Translations under genes and position numbers: made by a program
Part shown: in pieces, positions 9,980-48,660 of the stretch
How the letters are laid out: the number at the start of each line of letters is the position of its first letter
Position numbering within the stretch: the stretch's first letter is position 1
Origin: Melioribacter roseus
GTDB lineage: Bacteria; Bacteroidota; Ignavibacteria; Ignavibacteriales; Melioribacteraceae
DNA length: 64,000 nucleotides
Assembly: GCA_020722065.1 (NCBI GenBank)
Contig: DYLK01000003.1
Coordinates: 62,001 to 126,000 of the forward strand
Direction of reading: 5' to 3'
The notes under the pieces: generated by a model
The model's database searches: none
What the model was told of the DNA's origin: nothing
What the model saw: the letters and a program-made list of their open reading frames with translations, nothing else

Positions 9980-10052
9980 GGGCAGATAGCTCAGTCGGTA
10001 GAGCAAAGGACTGAAAATCCTTGTGTCGGCGGTTCAATTCCGTCTCTGCCCA
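9980..10052 (+). tRNA. tRNA-Phe (anticodon GAA)
   Basis: The 73-nt sequence folds into a full cloverleaf. The acceptor stem GGGCAGA pairs with TCTGCCC, the D arm is GCTC/GAGC, and the anticodon stem AAGGA/TCCTT encloses the loop CTGAAAA, giving GAA for phenylalanine. The T arm is GGCGG TTCAATT CCGTC with one G-T wobble. The discriminator base is A at 10052, and the CCA tail is not encoded (CAA follows). Confidence 0.97.
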
Positions 10053-19790: not shown

Positions 19791-19888
19791 TAGATAATCT
19801 TTTGATTTTTGACTTGATTAGGAATTGTGATGTTGATTTTTCCCTTCTAAATGGAAAGGAAATGGTATGATTTTGAGAAACGAGATTT

Positions 19889-24178: not shown

Positions 24179-24248
24179 TTCTCCATTAAATATGAATTAA
24201 ATTATTATTTTAACATTCAATTATCGTAAAAAAATTGTGAAAATTCAG

Positions 24249-27200: not shown

Positions 27201-27908
27201 GAATCTGAAAAATGGCTAAAAATGAATGGAATAGCGGGAATTTTTCCAGCTAATTCAATTGGAGATGATATTGAAATTTATAGTTCTGATGGCAAAAAGT
27301 ATTTATCAAAATTGCATTTTTTGCGAGATCAAAGAAAAAATAATAAAAATATCAATCTTTCTTTATCTGATTTTATTCTTCCAAAAGAAAGTAATCAAAC
27401 AGATTATATCGGAATGTTTGCAGTTTCCGCAGGAATTGGAATTCAGCATAAAATTGAAGAATTCAGAGCCAGAAATGATGAATACAACTCAATTTTGATA
27501 CAAAGCATTGCCGATAGATTAGCAGAAGCATTTGCAGAATTTGTTCATTGGAAAATTCGAACAAATATTTGGGGTTTTTCGAATGAAGAGATTAATATTG
27601 AAAATCTAATTGCAGAAAAATATATTGGAATTCGACCTGCGCCAGGTTATCCAGCACAGCCAGATCATACTGAAAAGCAAATAATCTTTGATTTACTAAA
27701 CGCAGAAGAAAAATGTGGAATTACGTTAACAGAATCGTATGCCATGTTGCCTACTGCTTCGGTTTGTGGACTAATATTTTCGCATCCCGAAAGTAAATAT
27801 TTCTCAATTGGGAAAATAAGTAAAGACCAAGTTGAAGATTACGCTAAAAGGAAAGAAATATCGGTTGAACAAGTTGAATATTGGCTAAAACCACACATAA
27901 ATTATTAG
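24249..27908 (+). CDS. metH: Cobalamin-dependent methionine synthase
   Basis: MetH transfers a methyl group from methyltetrahydrofolate to homocysteine through bound cobalamin. At about 1,220 residues it is the full-length form. The homocysteine domain opens [14 protein letters not shown], with zinc Cys in LNCALG and [10 protein letters not shown]. The pterin domain has [11 protein letters not shown] and [12 protein letters not shown]-type motifs. The B12 domain has the cobalt-ligand motif GDVHDIGKN near residue 760. The C-terminal activation domain has [20 protein letters not shown] 24249 is chosen; a GTG four codons earlier (24237) is an alternative. The window shows no B12 riboswitch in the 58-bp gap upstream. 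Confidence 0.96.
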
Positions 27909-27915
27909 GAAAATT

Positions 27916-28440
27916 ATGAAAACAAATAGACTTAAACTCTTTATTATTATATTCTTAACAACTTTCTCACTTCAATTATTAGCACAAAATCATAAGGAAG
28001 TTTTCCCTTCAGACTCAAGTTATTCGTTGAAATATCCCAATGATTGGATGACAATTCCATCAGTGAAGAAAATGAATGTAATGATAGTTAGCCCTAAAAT
28101 AAGTGAAAAAGATAGTTTCCAGGAAAATGTAATAGTTTTTTCAGAAAAGATAGATGAAAAACTGACACTTGAGGAAATTTATCAGAAATTTCAAAAGGAA
28201 ATTCCCACCAAAGTGAAAGCATATAAACTAATTGAGAAGGGAAATACTAAAGTGAACAATTTGGAAACTATTTGGTTTGTGTTTGAACAAGGAAATGAAA
28301 CAAAAAACTTGGCTTATATTTTTCATAAAGGGGGAAATAGCTATGTCGTTTTAAGTACAGCAAAAACAACAACTTATGCTGAATATGAAAAATATTTTAA
28401 GGAAATTAGTTATAGTTTCAGATTCAGAAAAAAATTCTGA
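27916..28440 (+). CDS. Small exported protein, PsbP/DUF1795-like
   Basis: This 174-residue protein has a signal peptide (KLFIIIFLTTFSLQLLAQ) and a single domain beginning YSLKYPNDWMTIPS. It continues through VIVFSEKIDEKLTLEEIYQK and ends SYVVLSTAKTTTYAEYEKYF. That layout resembles PsbP/DUF1795-type periplasmic or lipid-anchored proteins of unknown role; the match is by eye only. It starts 8 bp after metH. The last 45 codons and stop, plus 20 bp, occur again exactly at 46630-46788, at the far end of an 18-kb inserted segment. Confidence 0.75.
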   Translation: MKTNRLKLFIIIFLTTFSLQLLAQNHKEVFPSDSSYSLKYPNDWMTIPSVKKMNVMIVSPKISEKDSFQENVIVFSEKIDEKLTLEEIYQKFQKEIPTKVKAYKLIEKGNTKVNNLETIWFVFEQGNETKNLAYIFHKGGNSYVVLSTAKTTTYAEYEKYFKEISYSFRFRKKF

Positions 28441-28460
28441 AATTCAATCGTTTTCTGAAC
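28302..28460 (+). repeat. 159-bp perfect direct repeat, left copy
   Basis: I compared the two copies base by base and found no difference over 159 bp. This copy is the 3' end of the exported-protein gene (to its TGA at 28438-28440) and the following 20 bp. Identity stops abruptly at both ends: 28301 is C and 28461 is G, against T and C at the other copy. Confidence 0.97.
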
Positions 28461-28816
28461 GTGATTTTTTCCGTAATTTTTTGAATAAACTTGACTTTTA
28501 CAGATTAACAAAAGTATATTTTGTAAATAACAAGTTATTTGTACTATTTACATATAATAGTTTATATATAAAATTTTTAGCTATTCTATCAGTGAGGCAC
28601 TAAAGGAAAAAGATATACAATTTTGGCATATTAAGGTTATTAGTTGTGTCCAAAATCACATTAATACCATATATCATCTTTATCGGATTGAATCTCTAAC
28701 CAGAAAACTATAACTTAATAGTAAGAATTACAATAAGTAAAATCCTTGAAATATTTTATGGTTTTAGAATGAATAATAAAGTAAGACATTTAATTAAAGA
28801 TGAAGGCATAAGTAAA
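28461..28816 (+). other. Left end of the inserted segment, non-coding, with a candidate promoter
   Basis: These 356 bp hold no gene. TTGAC at 28491-28495 and TATATTTTG at 28515-28523 are spaced like a -33/-7 pair and could drive the four-gene module. If so, the leader is nearly 300 nt long. A 14-bp sequence at 28476-28489 recurs at 46606-46619, near the other end of the segment. Confidence 0.5.
28491..28523 (+). promoter_or_regulatory. Candidate promoter of the giant surface-protein module
   Basis: TTG at 28491-28493 (within TTGAC) is followed after 21 bp by TATATTTTG, a near match to TAnnTTTG with one extra T. It is the best promoter-like pair before the four-gene run. Confidence 0.4.
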
Positions 28817-31800
28817 ATGAAAAAAGCACTATTTTTATTATTACTAACTTTTAGCTCTTTGTTTTCTCAGAGTTCAAATTGGAGTTCATTTATTTCATTT
28901 CCAAATTACCCTTCTCCTTATTTTAGCGATTGGGAAAGAAATCCTAACATTGGTAGCTTAAATATCAATTATTTTGGAACTGCACCAGTGCAATTCTATT
29001 TTGAAGTAATTATGACAATTGATGGTTATGGCGAGGCAATTAAAGGAAGAACGGATAACCGTGAATATTTATCAGGACCAGTTTCAGAAGTACTTACTTT
29101 TAATGATATATCTGACTAGCAAAGCACAACTATAAATCCTGATTTAGAAAAGCTCGTATTACAAACTGGAATGCTCCCCGAATCAAATTACTCATTGTGT
29201 GTAAAAACAAGAGCAGTTAACGGTGAATTACTTACAGAAACATGTGTTGATTTTGAGATTTCAATTCCAAATCCACCAGAATTAATTTTTCCTGAAGATG
29301 AAGGAGCAATCGATTTGGGACAACCAACATTTATGTGGAATCCGATAAATATTCCACATGATGTAGATGTTTATTATAATTTTAAATTAGTTCAAATACT
29401 AGAAGGGCAAACAAAATATAGAGCAATACAATCCAACATTCCAATTCTAGAAACAGAAATAGTAAATTCAAATTTATATTCATATAAATTAGATGATTAT
29501 CAACTTGAAGAAAATGCAAGTTATGCATGGCAAGTTCAGGCTGTAAACGATGAAGGAATGCCTCTTTCAACTAATAACGGTTATTCCGATATTTTTTCTT
29601 TTACTTACGGAAACAAAAATTCGGAATTAAACATTGACACGCTCGAGGTAATTGAAAATGTAGCTTATTTAATTGATATAAATCAGCTCTCAGTTGTTAA
29701 GAATGAAGCATTTTATACACTTAATGGAATTGCAACTTTACTATTTATAAAATCAGATGAAAGCAAGGTTCAACTTGAAGTAAGTGTTCAGAACTTGATG
29801 GTTCAGCAATTTGGAGATGATAACCCGATTTTGCTTGGTGGTAATATTAACGGTGATCTTGTTGATGATATTTTCCCTTCAAGCATTACTGGAACGTATT
29901 TTAATCCGCGTAGTTTTGATTTGCAAATTCCTTATCAATTTATGATTAATGGTGTTTTTAATATTGGTGATCAAACCGAAATTCCTTTGAGCGGAAATCT
30001 TCTTTACGAACATGGTGTATTAAGTGGCGAGCTTATGGCAACAGCTCAAGATGGAATTTCTCTTCTTTCTTTTGGAAGTGAAATAGTTCGATATAATATT
30101 AGTTCTGCACAGTTGAAATTCCCAAGTCTTGAAATTGATTTTACGGGTTCATTTTCATTTTTTGATGGCATGCCAATGGCAATGAGCGATGAATTTACAA
30201 TGTCGTCAAATGGAGATTTTGCATTTAATTTTTCTTCTGAAATTCCTTTCGAAGTTTCACTTTCTTCTACATCGGATTTTTTGAAATTAGTAATTAATAG
30301 TTATCAAGGAAGTGTGAGCGGAAATATTTACACACAGAAATATAATTTCAATGTTTTAACTGATAGTAAAATAGAATTTAACGCTAATCCAGATAATTCA
30401 TTTGGTGCAGATTTAGAATTATTATTATCACCAAATTCAATGAAAGTAATTTCATTTTATCCAAGTGAAGATTTTGAAAATAACTATATTGATCTTGGTT
30501 GGCTAAAATTCAAAATGGAGAGAATGAACTTAAATGCTCTTTCTTATGCAAACAGCGAATGGGATTTTGATTTTTCATTAGATGCGAAGTTTAACTTACC
30601 AAATTTTAGCGAGATGGATTTCCCAACCATACATGGAGTTACATTTACTCCAACAGGATTGAAATTCCCTCAGATAGATTTTGACAATTTCTCAATTCCA
30701 AATATCGATTTTGCAGGATTTGCTTTGGAAATTTACGGTTTGAGAATGCAGCCTTTTACTTTTGATTTATCCACTTGGACGCCTGGCTCAATTGCTAATT
30801 TTTCATTCGATTTTGATTCATATTTAACTTTTCCTAATTTCCCTGAAGGAAGTGCTGCTGAATTCTTTGGAGATGGAATTAATATTTCGCCTAATATCAC
30901 TGGTGGGAAATTTAATTTTGAAATTCCTACAATTAATTTTACGAATCCTCTAACACTTTCAATGCTTGATAATTTTAAATTCAATGTAAATGAAATATCA
31001 GGTTCATTAGGTTCAGATTTTGATGGTGTTAATTTTTCGTTTCTCCCAAATATCAAATTAAAAGGCGATTTAGTTTTGCCTCCAGCTTTCGGTTGTGAAG
31101 ATGGCGAGGAAACTGTTATTTCGATAAATAATGGAATTACAGTAAGCGGAGACGGAAAATTAAGCGGTGAAATTACAAATATTGTTCCCGAATGCCCAAT
31201 AAAATTTGGAATGGTTTCACTCTTTTTTTCTAATAGTAAACTGCAGTTTACAAACGAAGAAAATCAAAAAATTATTCTTGAAGGAAATGCTGGAATAAAA
31301 TTTAGTAATGCAATGGAAACAGACCCAATTGGCAATTTAAGTGCAAAATATGATATAATGAACAACGATTTGATTTACCTCAATGGCTCAATTAACGATA
31401 AATTCCGTTGGAATATTGGTGGCGAAAATCCACTTTTAAGTTTTATGATAAACTCAGCTAATATCAACAATAGAATATTAGAAATCGATGGAAGAAATTC
31501 TGTTGTGTTTGGTTCCACAGAGTTTGGAGTTACTTTTGACCAATTCCAAATAAACTTGAGCGACCTTAAAATTGAAAGCGGGTCAATCTTTTTTGACAGC
31601 GGTTTCAACTTAAAACTAACTGGAATTGAAGACAATAATTTTGTGATAACAACAGAGCCATTTGGGACAAAGCTAAATGGCGAAGCAGGATTAATGTTGT
31701 CATTACCTGACCAAATTTCTATCAGCAAAGATGGAATAAAAGTTATTGGAGATGGAACTGCCGAAATCAATTTTAATGGAAAAAACTATTCTGGAATTGG

Positions 31801-34800
31801 TGTTAAATTCTCAAGTGATTTTGCGTTTAATATGCAAGATTTTTCTGTTAAAAACGGGATGATTGAATTTTTCTCAAATGGAAATAGATTAGCTTATTGG
31901 GATGAAAGTGGATTTGTTCCAGATATTAATTTCTTCTTGAATTATATAATTCCAGAAAAGCTACCTTTACCTACATTGGATTTGGCTTATTTACAATTAA
32001 AATCTAATGACAGTCTTTTGGTTAACGTTGTTCCAAACGGCGATGAAGTTACAATTTCAACTTTTGAAGGGAAACCAATTCCGCTTGTATTTAAGGGATT
32101 GCAATTCAATGAACCACTTCCTCCACAAATTGATGTTACATTTAGTTTAACTGTAAACACTAATTCCGAAGCAGTTACTGGCGGACAAATATTTGTAAAT
32201 ATTCCAGAAGAATTTAGAGATGATTTCGACCTTTCTAAACTTGGAATTCCATATCAAATTCATTCAATATTTTATGGTGAGATAGAAGGCAATTACGGCT
32301 TTAAACTTGTTGGTAAAGCAAAGTTATTTGAAACTGAACTAAATTGTTCAGATTCACTTTCCCTTACAATTACAAATGCTGGAAATCTGATTGGTTCAGT
32401 TGATTGCCCATTAGAAACCACAATTCCAATGGTTCCAGAAAGCAACAAACTAAATTTAGTTATGAATAGAATCACGGGTGAATTTAATGTTGATTTATTA
32501 TCACGAACAATAGATTACGATTTTGCACTCGATTCCGATATCCGTTTCCAACTTGACGAAAGCAGTACTTGGGGCGTTTGGACTTTGCTTGGCGTAACAC
32601 CAGATGGAATTGAATTCCGCGATAGCAGAGTTGATTCAGTTGCAATTCCAAAAATATCTTTACCAAACTTTGATATTTCAATGTCAAATATTTCTTTACC
32701 AAATTTAAGTTTTACTAATGGAGTAAACGGTTCAAGTGGAACTTGGAATTTTGAATTTGGAATGGACGTTGATATGTCATTCCCACAATTAGGATTTTCA
32801 ATAAAAATACCAAGTGCTGACGGAATGAGTTTAACGCGTAGCGGCTTCCATTTCCCAAATATTTCGATAAGCGATTTGCCAGATAGTCTTTCATTTGATT
32901 TAAGCGGATTTGTAATTCATCCAACTGGATTCAGATTCCCACAAATAGATTTTAATTGGTTCGATCCTTTATCAAGCGAAATTGATTGGAATTTTGATTT
33001 CGACCTTAATGTTGATTTACCAAAAGTTGTTGGCGATATTAGAACACTTTCTTTTAGTGATGTCCATTTTAATGAAGGAATGTTTAGCGGTGAATTTCCT
33101 ACTATAAATTTTGGCTTAGGCGAGCTTATTTTACCGATGGGAAATGGGTTGGATTTCAACATCACTGGAATTACAACAAATTTCTTTAACAACGAAGGTT
33201 TGCAAGGACTTAATTTCGGTTTCAAAGGTCAATTGAAGATGCCAGAATTTGCAACTTGCGAAAATTCTAACGGAACGCTTTACGATATTTCACAAACAGA
33301 ATTAACTTTTGGAAGCAACGGATTTTTAAGCGGAAGAATTGAAAATTTTGCACCAACTTGTCCTATAAATTTAGGATTTGGGAAATTCAATATCACATCG
33401 TCATCGCTTGAATTTGCAGCAAACGATAGTTCACAATCTGCAGTTATCGATATGCAAGGAGCTATAAAAATTGCAACTGGCGGACAAGACACAGTTACAG
33501 CAAATGGTTCGTTAGTAATGAATTTGATAAACGGAGAACTTATTGATGGCGAAGTACAAATTAACGAGCAGTTCGTTCTTAATCTTCCAAAAGAAAATCC
33601 GGTTTTAAGATTTATAGTTAACAGTGCAGTTTACAATAAAAATGGTCTCGCTATTAACGGAAACAGTCAAATATTATTAGAAGGTGGAAATACACTTCCT
33701 GTGAATTTTCAAGAATTTATGTTTGACCCAATTCAGTTTAAAGTTTTAAGCGGTTCTATTACAATTGCCGATTCACTTTCTCTTTTGCTAAAAGTTGGAG
33801 AAGATAGAATTGATTATTCGCTTGTTCCTTACAATTTCATTTTAAATGAAAATCAAACAGCTAAAGTCGGTTTGAAAGGCGGCGTTACAATTGATGCAAA
33901 TGGAATTTCAGCAAATGGCGAAGCTCTTGCATCAATAAATTGGAGTGAAGAATTTAACTTCGACGGACTTCGAGCAGATTTTTCAGATGATTTCAAAATG
34001 AGAATAGCACCTTTTGGAGTCGAAGAAGGCAAAGTTGACATTTTCAGAAATGAGAACAAAATTGCAACTTACGACAATAGCGGTTTGCATCTTGGTGATA
34101 TTTTCGGAATAATTCCTTTACCAGAAAGAATTCCATTACCAAGCGAAGAAATAGCTTATCTTCAAATAAAAAATGGCGAAACGGTTCTTGTTCAAACTGA
34201 ATCAGTTCCAAACGGAACAAGAATTTCTACTCGAGCAGGGGAATCTGTAAAATTAAAAATACCTGGACTAAAATACGGAAGTGAAAATGCTCCTGAATAT
34301 AATGTTCAATTCAGTGTTGTAATAAATCCTTCTGATAGACAAATTGTTGAAGGTGAAATCACTATTGATGCAACTGAAGATAATCCTTCACTATTGAATT
34401 TGAGAAGTAAAGGAATTCCTGTTGATATTAAACAAATTCGTTACGGAAAAAATTCGAGCAATGTTTATCAACTTACTTCACAAGTAAAGTTTGAATTACC
34501 AAGTATGCTTGCTAATTTCCCAGTCGATATTGAGAATTTAGAGATAAATCAAGATGGTTTAGCAGGAACAATAAATTTAGGTCAATATTTTGACCATTAT
34601 CCAGAAAATGAAATTCCAACTTTGGCAAGCTCACTTGTTGGTGAGAATGCTTTGATAACATTAGAAGGTGTTAACGCAAGTTTTGGAGCGAATAAAGCAT
34701 TCAAATTTTCGGGTAAATTTATTCCTAAAATGTTTATTGACAATGGCGACACTTCCAAAATTCACTATTCTGCTGAATGGATAAGCGCACAAAATAAATT

Positions 34801-37800
34801 CTCTTTTGGTCTTGACCTTGCTGAAGGACAAGATATAAATTTGGGTATTGCCCAGTTTGTTCCAACAGCATTTGGTGAGCAACCTGCAATGAAGTTGGAA
34901 TTTACTGAAAGTCCAACTTCGGATTTTGCTTTTATCTTAAACGGACAAATATTGTTTGATAGTTTTGGCGAAGCAAATGAATTTTCGCTTGATTTCAGAA
35001 ATATGCAAATCACAAAAAATAATTTTTCTGTTGATGATTTAAGTTTGCCAAATATTGAAAATGCGTTACAATTTGAATTATTCAAATCAAGATTCCAAAT
35101 TTATGATGTAAATTTAAATGGAGTTAATCACCATGGAATTTCATTTTCATACAATGATGGCGTATTTAAAGTTGAATTAGCAGGAAAACTTACTTTCTTT
35201 GATAAGGAAATTATGTTTGCCGGTTTGGGAATTGACACACACGGTAACTTCACAATGCCAAATGTCGATTTTATTACAGCTCCATTAGTAGTTGTTGATA
35301 ATTTCTTAACTCTTACAAAAGTAAGATTAAACAACAATAAATTGGATATTGGTGGGTCAGCTAAATTGCCAAAACCAGCTGCTGATGATAATCATTTTGA
35401 TTTCAATTTTAGTATTAATCCAGATGGAACTTTTGAAGGATTAAGCGGAAATGAATTTGTATTGATTGATGAAACAAGAAGTGGACTTGGTGGTGGAGAT
35501 GCTTCGGAATACAAGTTCTGGATCGGAAATTTTGATGCTCGATATTTAAGTTTAACTCTCGATTTTGAACACATGCAACAAAGCACAATACAAATAGTTG
35601 CGGATGTTTATTTTAACGATGACGCAATTGGTATTGGTAATCGCGGTGTTGGAACAATAACTCCTGGATTAACTGTTGATTTTACAGGAAGAACAGAATT
35701 TGGTCCCGTTTCTATTCCTGGAAGTTTAGGAAATGTTAACTGGGAAATGTTGCAAATTCATATTGAGCAAGTTAACTTAAACAATGAGAACGGATTTGAA
35801 TTTGAACTAACTGGAAACTTTAGCTTGGGAATATCGGGAGTTGAAGGCGGACTTAATTTTGGTGGCACTGACCGTGGTGGTTTGATAATTACTTCAACTG
35901 GAGGTATTGAAAATTTCGGTAATTCCATTAGCGGTGGAAATTTTTCAATTCTTGATGTTGTAACAGTTACTGTTCAAAATGTTGGATTTAGCTCAACTCC
36001 AACAGATATTATTATTACAGCAAATACATCTTCAGGAAATTCAGTAGGGACTGAGAATCGAACAATTCGCGTAAATAATTATTTCAGTTTTGGCGGAAGC
36101 GTTGATATTGCAGGATTTATGAGTGGCGGAATTGACAGATTGTTAACATATAGTACTGATAACGGCTTTGCTCTTCTTATCGAAAATGCAAATCTAGAAA
36201 TTGAAAATGTAATTTCAATGAGAATGGATTTGATATATGAAAGTATTGGCGGAAGTTATAAAATATTAGCTGGAGCAACTGGAAATCTTGACATGGGCGG
36301 ATACGAAGTTATTGTTGTTGGAAAAGTTGCAACAGGGAGTTTCGGTTTCTTTGTCGCAGTTGATGGTTTACAGATTCCTTTAGGTCCTGTGGTGTTAGCA
36401 GGTGTTGGAGGCGGATTCTTCTACAATCCAACAACTCAAGATGTAAATTTAGTTAAATCACTTTGCGGATTAGGCAATAGTAGTGCAAGTAGCAAAATAA
36501 AAATTCCAGATAATGCCTCTTTTGCAGTTTTTTTATATGCTTCTTTAGCTTTTGCTGAAGATGATATAATACAAGGTAGAGTTTTACTCTCACTTGTTGG
36601 AACAAGTTATTTTTCACTTGATGGCGATTTAGTATTCCTTTCACAAGATGGTAGATTATATGGAACAGTAAGTTTGCAAGCAGATTTTGACCACGGCTAT
36701 CTTGATGGAAATATTCAAGTATTTATGAAAGTGCCACATTTGATTGATGGAAATGGAACACTTGCATTCTATATTTATGGAAGAGATACATGGGCTGTAA
36801 TGGGTAATTCACATGCAACAGTTGTTAGCTTCTTTGATGTTGATAATCGTTTGTTCATTGGACCTTCAGGTTTCTTGCTTGGAATGGAAGCACATGCCGG
36901 ATTTGATGTTTGGATAATTGAAGTTGATGCAGGTTTCGAAGCACAGATTTGGTATATCGAAAATGTAAGTTGGGGTGCTTATGCAACGGCTTATGTTAAA
37001 GCAGCACTTTGGGCAAACATTGCTTCAGCAAAAGGTTGGTTAAAATGTGCATTGTTCGGTGAACCAAATTTCTATATTTATGGTGAAGCGGGTGTATCAG
37101 TATCTGTGCTTTGTTTTAGTGGTTCAGCTTCAGTTTGGGCAAAAATATCCGCTGCCGGTGTTGATGGTGGTAAAGGACACGATTCGGAAATGTCAAGATT
37201 GATTGACGAAGCACAAGGAACCTGTGAGGAGGCACAAGCTCAAGCAGATGCAATTCAGGGTGCTGTTAATAATCAACCTCCACCATCATTTACATTAAGC
37301 GATGAGGAATTAGCACAAGCTTATGCAAATCTTTCAGAATGGGCAAGAAAATATAAATATGGAACCCAAACGGAACGAACAGAAGCATGGCAATTCTTTT
37401 TATCAATAAGAGAAGTAGAAACAAACATCCCTGGTATACCTGTTTTCACAAATATTGGTGGGGAATTTGAGCTCTATAATCTTGTTCTAAATGAAATATA
37501 TTTAGGTGAAAGAGCACCATCACAAAATGATTATTCAACAGCTTTATCTTCTCTTGATAGTGCACTTACTGCATATTCCGAAGTTCGCAACGAATTTATG
37601 GCTAATGTTGACCCAAGTCTGATTGCTCTTGAAACAATTTCAAATGACTTTGATACAGTTAGCAATATGCCAATAAATATGGCTGGGTTAAGCGAACCTC
37701 AGTTTGAAGAATATATTGATGCAAATGGTCAAACAAGAACAAGAATTGTTGCTGGTACACAACCAAGTTTTAGTGTAGATGCAGAATTAGATTCGCAAAA

Positions 37801-40800
37801 CAAACAAGCAATTACTGAAACAGTTGCCAGTGCTGAAGCTTTTGAAGAACAAGTAATGGCGCAAATAGCAAATCTTGATCAAAATATTCAAAAGATTGAA
37901 ACAATTTTAGTCGGTGCAAACGGTAATGGCGGAGCAGAAAAACTTGCTTCATCTTATGGATCGATGATGACAAGTATTTCAAATATATATACAAATAAAT
38001 TCATCCAAGATAAAAAAATGTATAATTGGGCTCATAATTACAGAGGAATAATGGCTTCCCAAAACACTAATATTGTAACTGTAATGCGTGTAAAATCGTA
38101 TATGGTTTACAACCGTGGATGGACATATTTGCGAGATCTTACAGCTAATCGTGTTCGAAAATTAGCATCTTTAGCTGGAAATGATGGTGATGCAGAAGCT
38201 AATACAGTAATTTCAAGTTGGAACGATTATCACTCGCGAGTAAGTGAAGATGTATTTAAGGATTGGGCTTTGGGTGAAGCTACATCAAAAGGTGTTATGT
38301 TGTGGTCAACTTTACCAAAAGAAGGATTAAATGCTGTAAAACAATCGAGTATGGATCTTGTTAATAATGATGTTAACGATAAGAAAAATGTAATAAATAC
38401 TCTTAGAGAATTTCAAACAAGTTTTTCAAATCAAATTCAAGATTTATATACTTCGCTTGCTACTTTATACGAGAAGAAAGCGGATATTCTTAACTTGCTT
38501 ATCTATGATAGACAAACTCGTAATTTAAGTACGACAGATTTAGTTAATCAAAAAACAGCAATAACAAGAAAAATGGTTTTGCCTAACATTTCTTTCTTCC
38601 AAGCATCAACTGTTGACCAAGGAATGTATGCAAAGGCAGTTATTATTTGGAGAGCAACTGGAAATGATGGTCCAAATAAATACTTGGTTGATTATGTAGA
38701 ACACTCTCCATATAATCCTCTAAAAGGTTTTGCCTCTATTGGAAATGTTGGCTGGTTACAACTAAATTATCTTCCAGAGATGGGCAGAACTAGTTTTGGA
38801 CCAACAACTTTTTATGTAAAAGCAAGAAACCCAATTGGTTACACAATTGAAAGAAATCTTACTTTTACTCCAACTTTTAGTAATACTGATAACGTAATAT
38901 TTAACAATATTGATATTATATCAGAAGAACAGGACCTTACACCTCCTATTGTATATAGTGATATAAATTTCCCTGAAGGATTTATTTCTCAGAATATTGA
39001 AGGACAAACTGGATATAAAAAATATTACACAGGAAATCCAAATCTTGTAAGCGCCTCTTGGGAAGCGTATGATGGAGAATCTGGAATTCGAGAATATCTT
39101 TACAAATTTGTTGAAGTAGAAAATCCTGATAATCTTAGTGGTGGAATGAATCAAACTCCTATTCATGTAACGCCTAATGGAACAAATTTTAACTTTACAC
39201 CAGAATTTATCCCTGGCACAACATACTTTATGCCATGTGCTGTTGAAAATATAATTTCTACTTTAATACCTCAAACTACAAACAATGGCAGAAGTAATGT
39301 TAATTTGAATACTGTGAACTTAAGTAACAATTCAGCTTATCAATTGATTGTATCTGCGGTAAATGGCGATGGACTTTCTTCCTCAAATTGTGGTGGATTA
39401 AAACAAATATTAATTGTTGACACAACTCCACCAAGTCAGCCTGGAAGAATACAATACCCAATTCAACATTTTCCACCATTTGTATTGCCAGGTTACACAG
39501 TTATAAATACAGTTGAGGAATTACCAAGTATTAAAGATGGTTATCGGTTCAATAGGTTAATTTATACAGGTCCTCGTAACACTTCTGAAGCAGAATTTCC
39601 AATTGAATGGAATAATGCAAGTGATGATGAATCTCATATACTTAATTATGAATATAAAGTTACAAATAAAAATAATCCAAGTGTTACAACTGAATGGTTA
39701 AATGCTGGTGTTGTAGAATCATTAATAGGACGAATTCCAAAAAGAAGCGTAACATTAAGAAACAATATACCTGGTTTAGAAATACTAAATTATGTTGACT
39801 CATTTTATGTTGATATTCGAGCAAAAAATTATGCTCAACTTTCTGGTGAATCAATTCGCTATAATTTCAAAATATTTGATGATACTGCCCCAACAAATCC
39901 AAGTGTGGCTTTTGCATATTCTCCAGATGGAACGCGACCTGTTTTATTATTTAAAACTCATTCACTTGACCCTGAATCTGGAATAGATCACTATGAAGTA
40001 GCAGTTAGTTCTCAGCCAAATAATGTATTTGATTATTTGCCTTGGGAACTAGCAATTCGTATTAATCCTTCAGATATTATGCAAAATGGTAGCTTTACAC
40101 TTCGTGGAGTTCCAGAAAACACAAAAAGTTACATTGCAGTTCGTGCAGTAAATAAACAAGGACGTAAGAGTAGATACTGTTACACAGGACCATATTATCA
40201 AGATAATACAAAACCGCTTACACCAGGTGTTAGTCTTGATAAATTTAGTATAAATGGAAGAATAACTTTATCTATGACCTTTTCGAATGTTAGAGATTTG
40301 GAATCTGAAATATCAAAAGTTGAATATAGAGTTCTTAAAAAAACTGTTGGAAGTACCAAATGGTCAGAGGTTCAGAATTGGACAGAATCTCCAACTTTAA
40401 CTTCTGCGGCTTTGGATCTTTCACGATTTAATGTAAATGCTTCAGACAGAATAAAAGTTTACGTAAAATCTACTAATTCTGTAGGTCTTGTATCAAATTC
40501 TGGAGAGAGAGAAATATTGCTTGATACTACACCTCCTGTAACACCAACTATTAGTTTGTTTATTTCAGGAATTTTACAAAATAAAACAATTAATATGTCT
40601 TTTGGTAATATTTCTGATCCACAAACAGGCATTGATAGAATTGAATATAAAGTCTATAAACAACGAGCAACAGCTTACCTGGGTTATATTGAACTATCCG
40701 ATTGGATAAGTAATGGAACTAATGTAAATTCGAGTTTTGCTTATCGGCTCTATAACCTTGAACCTGGGAATAGAATTAAAATAAAGGTACGCACTATCAA

Positions 40801-40852
40801 CAGAAATGGTTTGATTTCAGAAACTGCGGAAGTTGAAAAAACATTAAATTAG
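28817..40852 (+). CDS. Giant exported protein (about 4,010 residues), interrupted by an in-frame TAG
   Basis: The ATG at 28817 gives a signal peptide (MKKALFLLLLTFSSLFSQ). The frame meets TAG at 29117-29119, codon 101, then stays open in the same frame to TAG 40850-40852. Residues straight after the stop (QSTTINPDLEKLVLQTG) run on naturally, so one gene is split. Next come an FN3-like domain near residue 150 and two tandem copies of a beta-rich module of about 720 residues (30600-34600). Further glycine-rich beta repeats, a helical region near 37200-38500 and four or five Ig/FN3-like repeats each opening DTTPP or similar follow. No T9SS sorting domain is present. I do not recognise the family; a fibrous or adhesive surface protein is inferred. 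Confidence 0.8.
30600..34600 (+). repeat. Tandem protein-level duplication of about 720 residues inside the giant protein
   Basis: Landmarks recur in order. LKFPQIDF (near 30660) matches FRFPQIDF (near 32930); ECPIKFG (31190) matches TCPINLG (33356); LAYLQLKSND (near 31985) matches IAYLQIKNGE (near 34150); LGIPYQIHSIFYG (near 32240) matches KGIPVDIKQIRYG (near 34410). The last three pairs are about 2,166 bp, or 722 codons, apart. The DNA has diverged, so this is an old duplication. Boundaries are approximate. Confidence 0.7.
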
Positions 40853-40899
40853 AAAAAGAAAATGAAATTTATTCTTTTAAGATACTCCAAGGAGAGAAG

Positions 40900-42846
40900 A
40901 TGAAGAAAATATTTGTGTTTATCGGGTTGTTTATTGCAATTAACTTTGCAAATGCACAGTCAAAAAAAGATTTTTTTGTTGTGCCGACTCCCGATTCTTT
41001 GGCGATATATTTAACGTTTAGCCCAAATGCAAATACAGTTTATAATATTTATAGGCAAACTCCGCAAGGATTTGTGCAAGTAAATAAAAATCCAATTCGT
41101 GTTGAATTAGAAGCCGAACATGCAAAAATAATTTTAGGAAACGATTGGTCATTTATTACGAAGACGCTAGGAACTGATAATTCGCAAGATGTTTTGTTAT
41201 CGCTAAAGAGAAATGATTTTTCCTCATCTATTCTGTCTTTGGTAAGTCAAAAAGCAGCAACAGTTGCTGGAAAATTGAGTTGGGATTCCAAACAAACTGG
41301 TAATCAGCATTACAAAATTATTTTCTCTTCTGTTTTGGGTGTAAAGAAAGATTCACTTGAAAAAACTGTAAATACAGATTTTCGTTTGCCAAAATCACCA
41401 TTTGACTTAAAAGTAGAAAATGTGAACAACCAAGTTCAATTAAAGTGGAATTATCAAAAATGGAGCGGAGATTATTCTGATATTGGATTTCAGTACAATA
41501 TTTACAGAAAAGATGGGAACAGTGAATTTCGAAAAATCAACAAAGAAATAATTGTTCGAGATGACAATTCAAAGCCAAATTATGATGATATTTTATTAAA
41601 GGTAGGTGAAGAATATTCTTACTACGTTACAATCGTTGACCCAGCGGGAAACGAAAGTAAACCCTCAAATATTGTAAAAGTAAAATTGGAAGATGTCGTT
41701 GCCCCAAGTATTGTTACAGGATTGCAATCAACTTCTACATCAAAAGGTCTTTTATTAACTTGGAATATGTCGCCAGAATTGGATGCTAAAGGCTATAATA
41801 TTTATAGATCAAAAATGGCAACAGGCAAAAATAAAAAACTTAATAAAGAACTAATTTCATTTGATGCCCCTTCTTTTATTGATTCAACCATTTCGCAAAG
41901 TGTTCAAAATTTTTACAAAGTTTCTGTTGTTGATACTGCGGGAAATGAATCAGAATTGAGTAATGCTTATGCTGCAACACTTGCTGATATAAAAATTCCA
42001 GATTCGCCCAAAAATGTAGTAGCAAAGCCTATTAATGGATTTGTACAACTATCTTGGAAAAAATCAGAAGAAAAAGATTTAGTAGGTGCAGTAATTTATC
42101 GTGGATTGGACAGCAATATAACAGCTCGAATTTCTGCTCCAATAATGCAAACAACTTATGTAGATAGCGGTTATAATAATCTTGGATACAATTATGGAGC
42201 AAAGGTTCATTATTATGTAAGTTTTGTTGACAGTTCAAAAAATGAGAGCAAAAAAATACACTTAATTGTTGATGTCCCAGATGTTGAAGCTCCAATATTA
42301 CCAACAAATTTTAGAGTTGAAAATAAAAATGGTATTTATGTTGCAATTGAAGTAAATGCAAGTGTTTCGCGAGATGTTGCAAAATATTTTATTTATAAAA
42401 AAGAAGGAAGTGGAAAGCAAAATTTGCTTTGCGAAGTTTCACAAGCTCCGTTTTCTTTTCGTGATTCGAATGTTGTAAAAGGGAAAACATATTTATATGC
42501 TATTTCTGCAATCGACAAAGCAGGTAACAAAACAAAAATCTCTGACGAAATAGAAGTATTTGTCCGCGATTTTAATGCTCCACCAATTCCAAGAAATGTG
42601 TGAGCAAAACTTCAAAATGGAAGTGTAAATCTTGTTTGGGCTAAAGTTACAGATTTTGATTTTGTTGGTTACAATGTTTATCGTTCAAATTTACCATCGG
42701 GAACCTTCAAAAAATTAAATGAAAAACCAATTACCGATTTGAACTATATTGATAAAACTGGAAATAATTCAATGTTCTACAGAATATTATCTGTTGATAC
42801 ATCGGGAAACGAAAGTAAACACGAGAGAAGCATTGCAGTTAAATAA
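40900..42846 (+). CDS. Exported fibronectin type III protein, interrupted by an in-frame TGA
   Basis: A signal peptide (MKKIFVFIGLFIAINFANAQ) follows an AAGGAGAG ribosome-binding site. After an N-terminal domain of about 160 residues come FN3-type repeats, each with a line such as GYNIYRSK, FYKVSVVDTAGNESELS or YLYAISAIDKAGNKTK. The frame stops at TGA 42601-42603 (codon 568) in the middle of the linker to the last FN3 repeat. Beyond it the same frame encodes that repeat intact (VNLVWAKVTDFDFVGYNVYR to FYRILSVDTSGNESKH) and ends at TAA 42844-42846. The full product would be 648 residues including the stop position. It is likely a surface or periplasmic partner of the giant protein. Confidence 0.8.
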
Positions 42847-44833
42847 AATAATATTTTTCGTTTTTTTTATTACAGTTTACAGTTTTGGTCAAAGTGCCTA
42901 TCAAAATGCAGTAACCGATTTTGAAAATGGAAATTACAAATCTGCAGCAATAGCTTTTGAAAAATATTTTGAAGAAAATCCGTCAGATGCGGTGGCATTT
43001 CAGTATTTGGTTAATTGCTATTTGCAGCTAAAAGAATATCAAAAAGCGATTCCTGTTATTGAAAAGGGAATGAAGGATTTTCCAATTAATAACGATTTGA
43101 AACTAGTTTTAGCAAAACTTTATCTAAATGAAAGGCAGTTCCTAAAAAGTGAAAAGATACTTGTAGTGCTTGAAAAACAAAACTTTGAGCCTTTGGAAGT
43201 TAAAGATTTACTTTCTAAAATCTATTTTAATATTGCAGTTGTTGAAGTTGAACAAAGTGAAAATTCAAAGGCAATTGAAAGTCTTAAAAAAGCTGAAAAA
43301 TATGGGATGAAAAATCCAGAGCTTTATGCACTAAAATCTCAATCATATATTGCTCAAAAAGATAATGAAAGTGCGGAAAAGGCAATTGATGAAGGCTTAA
43401 AGCATTTTTCACAAAGTGAACTTTTACTAAGAACAAAAGCAATATTGTTGATTGAATCAAAAAAATACGAAGATGCAATTAAAATTCTTGAGCCAATTTG
43501 GGAAAGAAATAAATCAGATTTAGAAGTAGGTCTGCAATTAGCAATCCTTTATCGAATAAAAAATAAAGTAAAATCTGCTTTTGATATTTACAACACGTTG
43601 CTTGAAAAATATCCGAATGAACGTAGAATTTATGATGAAATGAAAACATATTTTGTTCTACTTGGCAAACAAAGCGATCTTCGTCAACTTTTAGAAAAAA
43701 TGAAAAATGTTTTCCCAAATGATAAAAATATAGATTTTGAAATTGCGGAATCTTATGTAAATGAAAAAAATGATTCGACAGCAATTTTGAAATACGAAGA
43801 AATACAAAACGAAAATGGATTGTCGGTTGAGTTAGTTCTAAAACTTTCGGAGTTGTACAAAAATACCAATCAAATTCAAAAATCCAATGAACTTTTGAAT
43901 TCGGCAATTGAAGCAAAAATATATGATAAAAAAATCTTCCAAAATCTTGGGAAAAATCTTGAATCAATTGATGATTTTGAATTTGCAAGATTAACTTATC
44001 AACGATTCATTTCAGCTTATCCAAAAGATTCAGAAGCATATTTGAAAATGGGTGAATTGTACAAGTCAAAAGAGAATTACAAAAAAGCGAAAGAGTTTTT
44101 TAAACAAGGTTTAGATATTGAAGAGAGTCCCGAATTACTTTTTGGTTTAGCTGAGATTTACGAACAAGAAAAAGATGCAAAAACTGCTGTCGATTTTTAC
44201 AAAAAAGCATTTTTAGTAAGTGTTGATAAGATAAGTGAAAATCAGAACATAGTAAAAACAAAAATCTCAAATTCCAAAACGCTTCAAGAAATTAAAGATG
44301 ATTCTGAAAATTCAATTTCAAAAGAAGATATTGAGAATCTAAAATTAATTGTGCAATCCAGCTTTGAAAAAATAATAAATCTTGCAAACGCTTACGAAGC
44401 CGAGACAGTTGTGTCTCAAAAACTATCAGAAAATCCGCACAGCCCTATTTTATTGTACTTCCAAGCCGAAATATATTTCAAGCGAAATGAATTTAATGAT
44501 GCGGAAAAATATTATTTAATGGCACTGAACACAAATTCTTCATTTGAAGATGCTCACCTGAAATTAGGCGAAATTTATAAGAAACAGAATAAAATTGAAA
44601 AAGCAATTTTAAGTTATAAACGTGTTTTAGGAATAAATCCTAAATCATCAGAAGCATACAAACAATTAATTGTTCTTTCTCAGCAAGAAGGAACTATTTC
44701 TCAATTATGCGACGAATGGCAGAAAATTTATTCAGTAAATGCAGAAAATAATATTTTAAAAGAATACTTAATTGAAGTTTTGCATAAATCTGGAAGATTT
44801 TCGGAAGTTAGAGAACTATTAAATCAAAAGTGA
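42833..44833 (+). CDS. Exported TPR-repeat protein
   Basis: A TTG start at 42833 gives a clean signal peptide (MQLNKIIFFVFFITVYSFGQ) and overlaps the end of the FN3 gene by 14 bp; the frame extends up to 42749 but without a better start. The 666 residues are almost entirely helix-turn-helix tetratricopeptide-like repeats, for example YQNAVTDFENGNYKSAAIAF, AYLKMGELYKSKENYKKAKE and AHLKLGEIYKKQNKIEKAIL. Such periplasmic TPR proteins usually act as scaffolds for envelope assemblies. Its tight linkage to the next, barrel-like gene (4 bp) suggests they work together in exporting or anchoring the giant protein; that is inferred. Confidence 0.82.
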   Translation: MQLNKIIFFVFFITVYSFGQSAYQNAVTDFENGNYKSAAIAFEKYFEENPSDAVAFQYLVNCYLQLKEYQKAIPVIEKGMKDFPINNDLKLVLAKLYLNERQFLKSEKILVVLEKQNFEPLEVKDLLSKIYFNIAVVEVEQSENSKAIESLKKAEKYGMKNPELYALKSQSYIAQKDNESAEKAIDEGLKHFSQSELLLRTKAILLIESKKYEDAIKILEPIWERNKSDLEVGLQLAILYRIKNKVKSAFDIYNTLLEKYPNERRIYDEMKTYFVLLGKQSDLRQLLEKMKNVFPNDKNIDFEIAESYVNEKNDSTAILKYEEIQNENGLSVELVLKLSELYKNTNQIQKSNELLNSAIEAKIYDKKIFQNLGKNLESIDDFEFARLTYQRFISAYPKDSEAYLKMGELYKSKENYKKAKEFFKQGLDIEESPELLFGLAEIYEQEKDAKTAVDFYKKAFLVSVDKISENQNIVKTKISNSKTLQEIKDDSENSISKEDIENLKLIVQSSFEKIINLANAYEAETVVSQKLSENPHSPILLYFQAEIYFKRNEFNDAEKYYLMALNTNSSFEDAHLKLGEIYKKQNKIEKAILSYKRVLGINPKSSEAYKQLIVLSQQEGTISQLCDEWQKIYSVNAENNILKEYLIEVLHKSGRFSEVRELLNQK

Positions 44834-44837
44834 GAAA

Positions 44838-46535
44838 ATGAAAAGAATTTTACTTGTATTAATTGTTTTTATATCATTTGTTAAAGGTCAAACAAGTTCA
44901 GATTCTACTGAAGTTGACTTGAGTATAACAAACAAATTGAACGATTATATTGCCCCTTCCATCTTTACTATTTCGGGAGAAGCAGGAGTTTACGGTGAAT
45001 TGTATTCAACTAATAGCGAAATAAAACGAAGACCTAGCTCAACCGGAAGAATTTTTCTTCGTCCAACTATTCAGTTTTTTCAAAATTTTTCAATGTCGCT
45101 TGATTTATTTCTTTCAACTGAAGGAAGCGGTTACAGACAAAATATAAACAGAATTGCAATTCATCCAACGTGGAGTTGGGGAACTGCTCATGTTGGAGAT
45201 TTTAATCATAAGTTTTCTGAATATTCGATAAATTCGGTTAGTATTCGAGGTGCGGGAGTTGAAATATATCCAGGTTGGTTTCGTTTTCAAATAATTGGAG
45301 GACAAACAAAACAACCAATTATTGCAAATAAGTACAATTCTGTCTATTCTCAATATCTTGCTGGTTTGAAAATTGGCGTGGGGAAGAAAGAATCTTCTTA
45401 TTTCGATATAAATTTAGTCGCTGCAACGGATGACAAGAATTCTATTCCGAATTCTATTTTTGTAACTGATACAACAGCTTCGTCTGTTTCTCAATCGGGG
45501 GTTACTCCAAAGGAAAATATTCTATTAGGATTAGAAACAAATTTGAATATTGTAAGTAATATTTTAAGATTCAAAGGTGAAATTACAGGAAGTTATTTTA
45601 CTAACGATGCAAACGCTGAAACTGTTGATTTTGATGGCTTACCACAATTTGTTGGGGAAATGTTTCATCCGCGAACAACAACGAATGTTGATTATGCTTT
45701 TAACACAGCGTTGGATTTTAGATATGACTTTTTTGACGCAAATGTTATGTTCTCTCAAGTAAATCCAGGGTTTCAGTCGCTTGGTGTGGTTTCTGTAATA
45801 AATGATAAAAGAAAATTTTCCTCTGGGATAGGATTTAAATTTTTAAATAATATGTTGATGTTTAAGATTCGTTACGATCATCAAAATGATAATTTGCTTA
45901 ATCAAAAAGCATTTACACTTTCGAGAAATACGATAGGTTTCATCTCTATCATTCGTCCAATTTCTGAATTATCAATTATAATCAATGTAATAAAAAATGA
46001 TATGAATAATGATAGTGAAAGCGATACAACAAAAATTGACAACAAGATTCTTTCAATAAACGGAAATGTTTCATATCAATTTGATGTGATGAAGATTCAA
46101 AATTCTGTTATGATTGGATATTCAAATCAAACATCCAACAATTATAATTTCTATTCTCCAGTTGAAAATAAAATTACTGTTAACAACTTTTTTGCTAATC
46201 TAAATACAACGATCGATAAACATTGGTCTGTTGGACCTGGTTTTTCTTTAGTAAAAATTAGCAGTTGGACTGGAGCAGAAAATCAGACACTTTCGTTGAA
46301 TCTAAAAGTTAATAATCGTTTGTTCAGCTCGAAGTTGATGAATACATTAATGTTCTCATTTTCACAATCAGAATTTACGAATGTCTATCTTGTAAATTTC
46401 CAATCTTCATTCCGTTTTACAAAATCAGATGAGATAAAACTTAAATTAAGATACTCAATAACAGACTATTCCAATAATTTAACTCCAAACTTTTGGGAAA
46501 ATATTGCAAGTTTAGGTATTATTCATAAACTTTAA
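44838..46535 (+). CDS. Predicted outer-membrane beta-barrel protein
   Basis: The 565-residue protein has a signal peptide (MKRILLVLIVFISFVKGQ). It then shows alternating short amphipathic strands throughout, for example FRFQIIGGQTKQP, DALDFRYDF-like and FKFLNNMLMFKIRYDH stretches. The last strands include DEIKLKLRYSITDYSNN and a C-terminal IASLGIIHKL. The composition (rich in Asn, Ser and aromatic residues, few Cys) fits an outer-membrane barrel. I do not recognise a named family; it is not an obvious PorP/SprF or TonB-dependent receptor. As the last gene of the four-gene module it may be the outer-membrane pore or anchor. Confidence 0.7.
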   Translation: MKRILLVLIVFISFVKGQTSSDSTEVDLSITNKLNDYIAPSIFTISGEAGVYGELYSTNSEIKRRPSSTGRIFLRPTIQFFQNFSMSLDLFLSTEGSGYRQNINRIAIHPTWSWGTAHVGDFNHKFSEYSINSVSIRGAGVEIYPGWFRFQIIGGQTKQPIIANKYNSVYSQYLAGLKIGVGKKESSYFDINLVAATDDKNSIPNSIFVTDTTASSVSQSGVTPKENILLGLETNLNIVSNILRFKGEITGSYFTNDANAETVDFDGLPQFVGEMFHPRTTTNVDYAFNTALDFRYDFFDANVMFSQVNPGFQSLGVVSVINDKRKFSSGIGFKFLNNMLMFKIRYDHQNDNLLNQKAFTLSRNTIGFISIIRPISELSIIINVIKNDMNNDSESDTTKIDNKILSINGNVSYQFDVMKIQNSVMIGYSNQTSNNYNFYSPVENKITVNNFFANLNTTIDKHWSVGPGFSLVKISSWTGAENQTLSLNLKVNNRLFSSKLMNTLMFSFSQSEFTNVYLVNFQSSFRFTKSDEIKLKLRYSITDYSNNLTPNFWENIASLGIIHKL

Positions 46536-46629
46536 TCACATAGGAGATTTTTATTGTGTTGTCAGATATTTGCAAAAATAAATTATATGAATTGAAATAA
46601 TCTTTATTTTTTGAATAAAAAAAGGGACT

Positions 46630-46788
46630 AAAAAACTTGGCTTATATTTTTCATAAAGGGGGAAATAGCTATGTCGTTTTAAGTACAGCAAAAACAACAA
46701 CTTATGCTGAATATGAAAAATATTTTAAGGAAATTAGTTATAGTTTCAGATTCAGAAAAAAATTCTGAAATTCAATCGTTTTCTGAAC
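46630..46788 (+). repeat. 159-bp perfect direct repeat, right copy (orphan gene fragment)
   Basis: It is identical to 28302-28460. Here the 45 codons have no upstream part of their gene, so they are a dead 3' fragment. The last 17 bp of this copy also encode the final codons and TGA stop of the minus-strand MazG-like gene. Confidence 0.97.
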
Positions 46789-47083
46789 CTGGGGAGCCTT
46801 TTTTTAACCTATTTTGGTATTTACTAAGAATTTCTTCGAGCAAAATTTCAGCATCAATTTCAGTTTTGTTAAGTAAATTAAAAATTGAGTAAAGTAAATC
46901 GCCAATTTCCAGCTTTAATTCTTTTGTAATCTGAACTTGATTTTTTCCATAGTTTGTTGATTTCAGAATTTCCTTTGAAACTTCACCCAGTTCAGATAAA
47001 ATATCAAGAATAATTGTAACTTCATCAGAAGTTAAAGAATTAGAATCGGTAAAAACTTTTACTTTTTGTTGTAGTACATTCAT
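46772..47083 (-). CDS. MazG-like nucleotide pyrophosphohydrolase
   Basis: This short all-helical protein of 103 residues has the MazG-type signature EVTIILDILSELGEVSKEIL and KLEIGDLLYSIFNLLNK (E-x2/3-E ... E-x2-D). These coordinate Mg2+ in NTP or dNTP pyrophosphatases used in nucleotide-pool cleaning. The start ATG shares bases with the stop of the aldehyde dehydrogenase gene, so it is translated from that transcript. Its last five codons and stop lie within the right 159-bp repeat. The same bases follow the exported-protein gene in the left repeat. Confidence 0.8.
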   Translation of the reverse strand: MNVLQQKVKVFTDSNSLTSDEVTIILDILSELGEVSKEILKSTNYGKNQVQITKELKLEIGDLLYSIFNLLNKTEIDAEILLEEILSKYQNRLKKGSPGSEND

Positions 47084-48660
47084 TATTTCTTTTTGAATTC
47101 TTCAATTATTTTTTGAACATCTGATTCAGAAATCCCTTTCCCAAAATTAGAGCCTGTTTTTTCAATTTTATTGTTGGAAGAAATAAATGGATCTACTTTT
47201 GGATTTCCAGCACGGGCAAGTAGTCTTTCTTCTATCGAATTAGTAAAACTTGTGGTTTGCAATTTCGATTTAGTTTCATCTGAAAATGAATTTAAAGAGT
47301 GTCCAGGAGTTAATGGATTAGTTTCGAATGCTAAAGTTTTTATATTAATAAGATGTTTAGCCGAAACATTTTCCGAAATACTTGAACCAGCCCAAGTTCC
47401 AACACCAAGTGTTAATGAAGGCATAAGTGCTGTCGTAAATCCTACTGCACCAAGTGAGCTTGGGGAATTTACTACAATTCTAAATGCTGGCTTTTCAAGT
47501 GCAAACTTCATAATAATATCTCTATCATTTGAATGAATTGAAAGAGTGTGTCCTAATCCACCATTTTGTAAAATTGCAATTGATTTATGGCAACCATCTA
47601 ACCAACCATCTACAGTGTAAAAAGCTAAAATTGGAGATAATTTTTCTTTCGAAAGGGGATGATTTTCGCCAATTTCATCGCAAAATGCTATTAAGACTTT
47701 TGTGTTTTGCGGAACGGAAAATCCTGCAATTTCAGCAATTCTTGTAGCAGGTTTTCCAACAATTTCGGCATTAACCCTTCCATTCTTTTCAATAATAGCA
47801 GCCAACTTTGTTTTTTCTTCATCAGATAGAAAGTAAGCACCTTGCTTTTTTGCAATTTCAATTGCTTTTTCACGAATTGGTCTATCAACAATCATTGCTT
47901 GTTCAGACGAGCACAAAGTTCCGTTATCAAAAGTAGTTCCTTTAATAATGTCTGTAACAGCTTTTTCTACGTCTGCAGTTCTTTCAACAAAAGCAGGAAC
48001 ATTTCCAGAACCTACTCCCAAAGCTGGATTTCCAGTACTATATGCAGATTTAACCATTGCATTACTTCCGGTTGCCAAAATTATTCCAATATTTTCATCT
48101 TTCATTAAAGCGTTTGTCCCAGGTAAGGTGGGGAAAGACATACATTGAAAAAGTTCCCGAGGAGCACCAGCTTTATAAGCAGCTTCGGCAACAACTTGTA
48201 ATGCTTCTTTTGTACATTCTACAGCCGAAGGATGAGGTGAAGCTACAAATCCGTTTCTACTTTTTGCAGAAATTATTGCTTTATACATCACTGTTGAAGT
48301 TGGATTTGTAGTTGGAATTAAAGCCGCTACAACTCCCATTGGTTCAGCAATTTTAACAATTTTGCCATTTTCTAAAACTTCAATTATTCCAACAGTTTTT
48401 AGATCTTTAATTGATTCATAAACATTTTTAGTAGCGAATTGATTTTTTAGTACTTTATCCTGCCAAATACCAAAACCAGTTTCTTCAAAAGCCATTTTTG
48501 CTAATCTTTCGGCTTCCTTAAATCCAGCATCAGCCATTGCTTTAACAACTTTATCTACTTGTTCTTGTGAAAAATATTTAAATTCCTTTTGTGCATCTTT
48601 AGCTTTTAGTACTAAATTACGTACTTCTTGAATTGATTTAAGATCTTTATCAACGTTCAT
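47083..48660 (-). CDS. CoA-acylating acetaldehyde dehydrogenase, EutE/AdhE-N type, with C-terminal helix tag
   Basis: The 525-residue enzyme belongs to the acetylating aldehyde dehydrogenases that turn acetaldehyde, NAD+ and CoA into acetyl-CoA. Visible are PMGVVAALIPTTNPTSTVMY near residue 109, KSRNGFVASPHPSA, ILATGSNAMVKSAYSTGNPA and the catalytic Cys in DNGTLCSSEQ near 250. The dehydrogenase domain should end near LLARAGNPKV. A flexible stretch (FISSNNKIEKTGSNFGKG) and a final amphipathic helix, SESDVQKIIEEFKKK, follow. Such a linker plus helix is how enzymes are targeted into bacterial microcompartments, which makes that role possible here. No alcohol dehydrogenase domain or shell gene is present nearby. 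Confidence 0.92.
   Translation of the reverse strand: MNVDKDLKSIQEVRNLVLKAKDAQKEFKYFSQEQVDKVVKAMADAGFKEAERLAKMAFEETGFGIWQDKVLKNQFATKNVYESIKDLKTVGIIEVLENGKIVKIAEPMGVVAALIPTTNPTSTVMYKAIISAKSRNGFVASPHPSAVECTKEALQVVAEAAYKAGAPRELFQCMSFPTLPGTNALMKDENIGIILATGSNAMVKSAYSTGNPALGVGSGNVPAFVERTADVEKAVTDIIKGTTFDNGTLCSSEQAMIVDRPIREKAIEIAKKQGAYFLSDEEKTKLAAIIEKNGRVNAEIVGKPATRIAEIAGFSVPQNTKVLIAFCDEIGENHPLSKEKLSPILAFYTVDGWLDGCHKSIAILQNGGLGHTLSIHSNDRDIIMKFALEKPAFRIVVNSPSSLGAVGFTTALMPSLTLGVGTWAGSSISENVSAKHLINIKTLAFETNPLTPGHSLNSFSDETKSKLQTTSFTNSIEERLLARAGNPKVDPFISSNNKIEKTGSNFGKGISESDVQKIIEEFKKK

Follow-up and report, generated by a model that had tools for sequence, protein, structure and literature searches.

How did an 18-kb segment of predicted surface-protein genes come to lie between two perfect direct copies of a gene's 3' end? 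The question is raised by the window, by which we mean the whole 64,000-nucleotide stretch of Melioribacter roseus DNA analysed here, and the answer reached below is that the locus records a real, recent insertion that duplicated a gene junction and was most likely brought about by general recombination. The insertion site is laid out as follows:

24237..27908, + strand: metH (B12-dependent methionine synthase), left neighbour (Pfam)
27916..28440, + strand: PsbP-like exported protein gene (psbP), intact, with 139 bp at its 3' end falling in the left repeat copy (weak PF01789 match, below the cut-off)
28302..28460, + strand: left repeat copy (sequence identity, genome-wide copy search)
28461..46629, no strand: inserted segment of 18,169 bp, which the congener G077 lacks (empty-site alignment)
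46630..46788, + strand: right repeat copy, comprising an orphan psbP 3' fragment and the last 17 bp of mazG (sequence identity)
46772..47083, - strand: mazG-like gene, intact, its 3' end inside the right copy (PF03819)
47083..48660, - strand: aldehyde dehydrogenase gene (aldh), right neighbour (PF00171)

As an earlier note on this DNA had reported, positions 28302-28460 and 46630-46788 form an exact direct repeat of 159 bp in the same orientation, with 18,169 bp between the copies. The identity stops sharply, the adjoining base differing at both ends, and the whole genome (2.38 Mb in 69 contigs) holds just these two copies of the sequence. In a census of exact forward repeats of at least 40 bp over 1.79 Mb (75%) of the genome, this pair is the only exact repeat of at least 60 bp with copies on the same contig more than 1 kb apart, the remaining long within-contig repeats (458, 328, 173 and 75 bp) having copies less than 0.8 kb from each other, and it lies far beyond chance expectation. 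Three of the latter are perfect tandem-type repeats (458, 328 and 173 bp at C37:24231, C31:108497 and C20:9111, respectively; copies 0.5-0.8 kb apart). Several contigs of the genome also have short near-identical stretches in common, often at contig ends, which form a dispersed repeat (C22:37127-37500, C11:6614-6990, C50:1-390, C10:28823-29010 and the end of C34).

The final 139 bp of the PsbP-like gene and a further 20 bp make up the left copy; on the right stands an orphan fragment of that gene that lacks a start, both as previously described. What had been missed is that the final 17 bp of the repeat are the 3' end, stop codon included, of the convergent mazG-like gene, so that the right copy is required to complete mazG. 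Since the 3' ends of both genes fall within the repeat, psbP on the left and mazG on the right remain intact; what has been duplicated is the stretch where the two convergent genes meet, with neither of them broken.

Comparison of the interval between metH and the aldehyde dehydrogenase gene in relatives, which the earlier note had proposed, revealed an empty site. G077, a member of the same genus (100% complete by score and 92-94% identical in DNA over this region), has metH, psbP, mazG and aldh but not the segment, and the flanks of the window, when joined through a single repeat copy, align to it over 299 bp with zero gaps. Because the collapsed copies match G077 gaplessly over this length, the window carries a clean insertion and, with it, a duplication of 159 bp. 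The neighbouring genes are well conserved in G077 (90% identity for the PsbP-like gene, 92% for the mazG-like gene and 96% for the aldehyde dehydrogenase gene); the order metH-psbP is common to G077, G075 and genus g31, an arrangement that is old within the family, and in G076 and G078 mazG adjoins aldh. The four congeners compared, two of which are incomplete (77% and 85%), yielded no relative of the segment's barrel gene, and gain of the operon in the Melioribacter roseus lineage is the simplest reading. The repeat copies show 0 differences from each other over 159 positions and 15 of 159 from G077, all 15 common to both copies, which supports the view, already expressed in the earlier note, that the event was recent. 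Under a simple clock, the age of the insertion would be at most ~20% of the divergence time from G077 (95% bound), an estimate that is loosened if gene conversion occurred or if the assembler merged variants.

Comparison with other genomes indicates that the segment is one conserved four-gene operon together with its upstream region:

28640..28768, + strand: upstream region, approximate limits, with short blocks common to other operon copies (alignment)
28769..40852, + strand: gene of a giant exported beta-rich protein, 4,027 codons, TAG-interrupted (comparison with relatives)
40900..42846, + strand: Fn3-type exported protein gene, TGA-interrupted (comparison with relatives)
42749..44833, + strand: TPR protein gene, start probably near 42815 (Pfam TPR families, relatives)
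44838..46535, + strand: large outer-membrane beta-barrel protein gene (predicted structure)

Because about 130 bp 5' of the giant gene match the other copies in short blocks, the insert corresponds nearly exactly to one transcription unit plus its upstream region, of which positions 28640-28768 are probably the promoter. G002, G004 and G005 have the same giant-Fn3-TPR-barrel order, as does G003 in two copies; cut-off contigs from G035 and G073 and a number of Ignavibacteria at greater distance show it too. Within the family, the operon is patchy in its occurrence. The two copies of the operon in G003 are divergent from each other. The barrel protein of the window is 46-56% identical to the barrels of the family's closest operons and is placed beside the copies of genus g2 in the tree, on a long branch and with modest support (80/85). 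As the composition of the segment is ordinary for the genome (rank 16 of 132 windows; GC content of 32.2%, genome 31.0 +/- 1.0), it does not indicate a foreign origin. A viral origin was considered and rejected, as the barrel protein has no relatives in viral contigs and no convincing phage families were found.

Two of the four genes are interrupted. The open reading frames at 28769-29119 and 29171-40852 are a single giant gene split by an in-frame TAG at 29117-29119, a position at which all five relatives checked have an open frame with Trp, and the Fn3 gene has an in-frame TGA at 42601-42603 through which six relatives read, with open frames of 653-654 aa. Besides this TAG and this TGA, the two reading frames have no further breaks, and those of the TPR and barrel genes are open. 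Reassignment of a stop codon was rejected as an explanation: all three stops end ordinary genes, and no suppressor tRNA was found in the part of the genome read. With nonsense codons in two of its four genes, the surface operon is apparently now damaged; it may be decaying, or the nonsense codons may vary among cells. The model of the barrel protein (mean pLDDT 73) has its best match among solved structures in chain B of the Mtr complex (Z 19.4), and its predicted fold matches that of large outer-membrane barrels, a likeness of fold that shows no function. No significant structure match was obtained for a 601-residue stretch of the giant protein (model mean pLDDT 71).

As to what brought the operon in, domain-family searches bear out the earlier observation that the segment holds neither an integrase nor a transposase. 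There are two tyrosine recombinases in the whole genome, one passing the NCBIfam cut-off for XerD and the other best matching XerC, below the cut-off; G077 likewise has two, and no serine recombinase was found in the genome. With no integrase or transposase in the segment, only XerC/XerD-like proteins genome-wide and no serine recombinase, both an island with its own integrase and an IS-type insertion are disfavoured. In line with this, the segment has no transposase family match of the kind expected of a composite transposon or IS element and its duplication, at 159 bp, is not the short target duplication of such elements, and the window contains no inverted repeats of at least 30 bp. The insert edges have only short matches elsewhere in the genome. 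There is no tRNA or other known RNA at the insertion site, the sole such RNA in the window being a tRNA-Phe at 9980, and RNA structure at the right junction is within the range of shuffles. The genome has no Ku, which disfavours Ku-dependent end joining. All five genomes of the genus have a ComEC family match, which alone is insufficient proof of competence. The earlier note had offered two sources for the footprint, integration at a gene's 3' end and a single crossover: given that only the XerC/XerD-like pair is available, the former is disfavoured, and the latter, unproven as it is, fits better. It had also called the mobiliser unknown; none is indeed seen, and this may mean that no dedicated mobiliser took part.

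Since the usual DNA-inserting enzymes are not seen, ordinary recombination is probable, and we lean, if only slightly, towards a scenario in which the operon entered the psbP/mazG junction after the split from G077, probably through RecA-dependent recombination rather than through a dedicated recombinase. The exact two-copy repeat, the empty site in G077 and the lack of a barrel gene in the four congeners, as opposed to the conserved operons in other genera, argue for it; RecA as the agent, a circular or linear form of the incoming DNA, and the donor are the parts of the proposal that we infer. A circle bearing the psbP/mazG junction could have integrated by one crossover. Alternatively, during natural transformation, recombination at the junction could have anchored one end of the incoming DNA and the other end could have been attached illegitimately, a sister chromosome supplying the duplication. 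Either route would yield the order gene-repeat-cargo-repeat-gene, with the neighbours intact.

The inner edges of the insert carry possible traces of such an exchange:

28461..28484, + strand: first 24 bp of the insert, resembling the interior of mazG (46937-46960), suggestive only (alignment, 20/24)

This mazG-like 24-mer lies just inside the left copy (AT-matched null 0.0007), and its match grows to 27/31 when the final 7 bp of the repeat are included (null 0 of 3000), the motif TCTGAAC at the left junction being common to the interior of mazG; just inside the right copy, 13 of 20 bases are psbP-like in register (null 0.0025). These weak traces, which were noticed after the fact and comprise few bases, follow the order predicted by a single crossover and serve as a lead. 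Against a single crossover with a diverged donor, however, stands the expectation that the copies should be hybrid, yet two identical 159-bp copies are present. Flanks of 65-83% identity beside a perfect 159-bp core thus call for gene conversion, a near-identical donor, a two-step history, or traces that arose by chance.

The type of insertion is already known, and the present locus is a fresh instance of it. As in Campbell-type single-crossover insertion-duplication, DNA absent from a relative lies between direct copies of chromosomal sequence, one copy of which is found in the empty site of G077, the neighbours are kept and no recombinase is needed; unlike there, no circle is seen here, and the incoming DNA would need to have carried 159 bp of near-identical homology. 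For the T6SS immunity arrays of Vibrio cholerae, the model proposed is homology-facilitated illegitimate recombination during natural transformation (PMC5361080), where likewise a whole gene module is inserted beside a displaced 3' gene fragment without an integrase, but the fragment displaced in our case is an exact duplicate and not the ancestral gene pushed aside, and competence is inferred from ComEC only. In Streptococcus pneumoniae merodiploids, transformation generates duplications by unequal crossing-over (PMC3784515), with incoming DNA bridging two chromatids and becoming surrounded by the duplication, as could be the case here; those duplications, however, span ~100-900 kb as compared to 159 bp.

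Genomic islands that occupy the 3' ends of genes resemble the locus in that their direct att repeats equal the 3' end of a gene, which is left whole. Here, the 3'-end-restoring repeats are present, but neither a site-specific recombinase of the segment's own nor multiple sites with the same ends were found, and the target is a pair of protein genes, not a tRNA. That the segment is an integrase-type island with its att site at the 3' end of psbP, the integrase having been lost or being supplied in trans, agrees with the clean empty site and the identical copies, and the repeat does hold a 7-bp inverted repeat (TTCAGAA-AAAAA-TTCTGAA). This motif is not retained in G077, though, and may be a terminator; the only recombinases on offer are the XerC/XerD-like pair, and G077 too has two tyrosine recombinases; the repeat contains no dif-like site scoring better than shuffles (with an E. 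coli-like pattern, none was found elsewhere in the part of the genome read either); and the operons of G002, G003 and G005, some with flanks read short, are without comparable flanking repeats. We therefore consider such an island unlikely. More doubtful is a surface-protein operon that is mobile yet lacks a recombinase of its own, which would move and loop out by homologous recombination through long host-derived repeats and exist in integrated and circular forms in only part of the population; if this were true, cells would gain or lose the giant surface protein together.

The main doubt on the insertion reading concerns an integrated versus a circular form. An overlap of exactly 55 bp joins the ends of nine pairs of contigs, and, contigs that read N aside, no other tested length does so, which indicates a de Bruijn short-read assembly with k=55, in which the 159-bp repeat is one graph node. 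An integrated and a circular segment would look alike in such a graph, so that the path through the node was the assembler's choice and small differences between the copies could have been merged; the segment might really be a separate circle carrying the repeat, or be integrated in part of the population. We regard this as rather improbable, as both repeat-segment junctions must, by graph reasoning, be in the reads for such a path and none of the segment's genes was recognised as a replication gene. Read pairs generally resolve repeats as short as 159 bp, which also counts against it. Least probable in our view is an older insertion or tandem duplication with repeats homogenised by gene conversion and a segment lost from G077 by recombination between them. 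Such recombination would leave exactly the site seen in G077, and decayed mazG- and psbP-like traces do occur at the inner edges, but the copies have all 15 differences from G077 in common and none between them, and the operon is in none of the four congeners compared.

With its insert, its empty site and its duplication all open to inspection, the locus is a clean, near-fresh footprint of the gain of a whole surface operon without a visible mobile element in an uncultured family. It also highlights a conserved uncharacterised operon (giant beta-rich exported, Fn3, TPR and large barrel proteins) across Ignavibacteria. Away from the insertion, G077 has between the aminotransferase gene and uvrA (19791-19888 in the window) a gene for a probable membrane protein of 258 aa (L039, 6237-7013) that is absent from the window. 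A protein of 1,864 aa, likely a substrate of type IX secretion, is encoded at 1421-7015; its domains are of the cleaved-adhesin and MAM-like kinds, and a Por_Secre_tail sorting domain lies at the C terminus.
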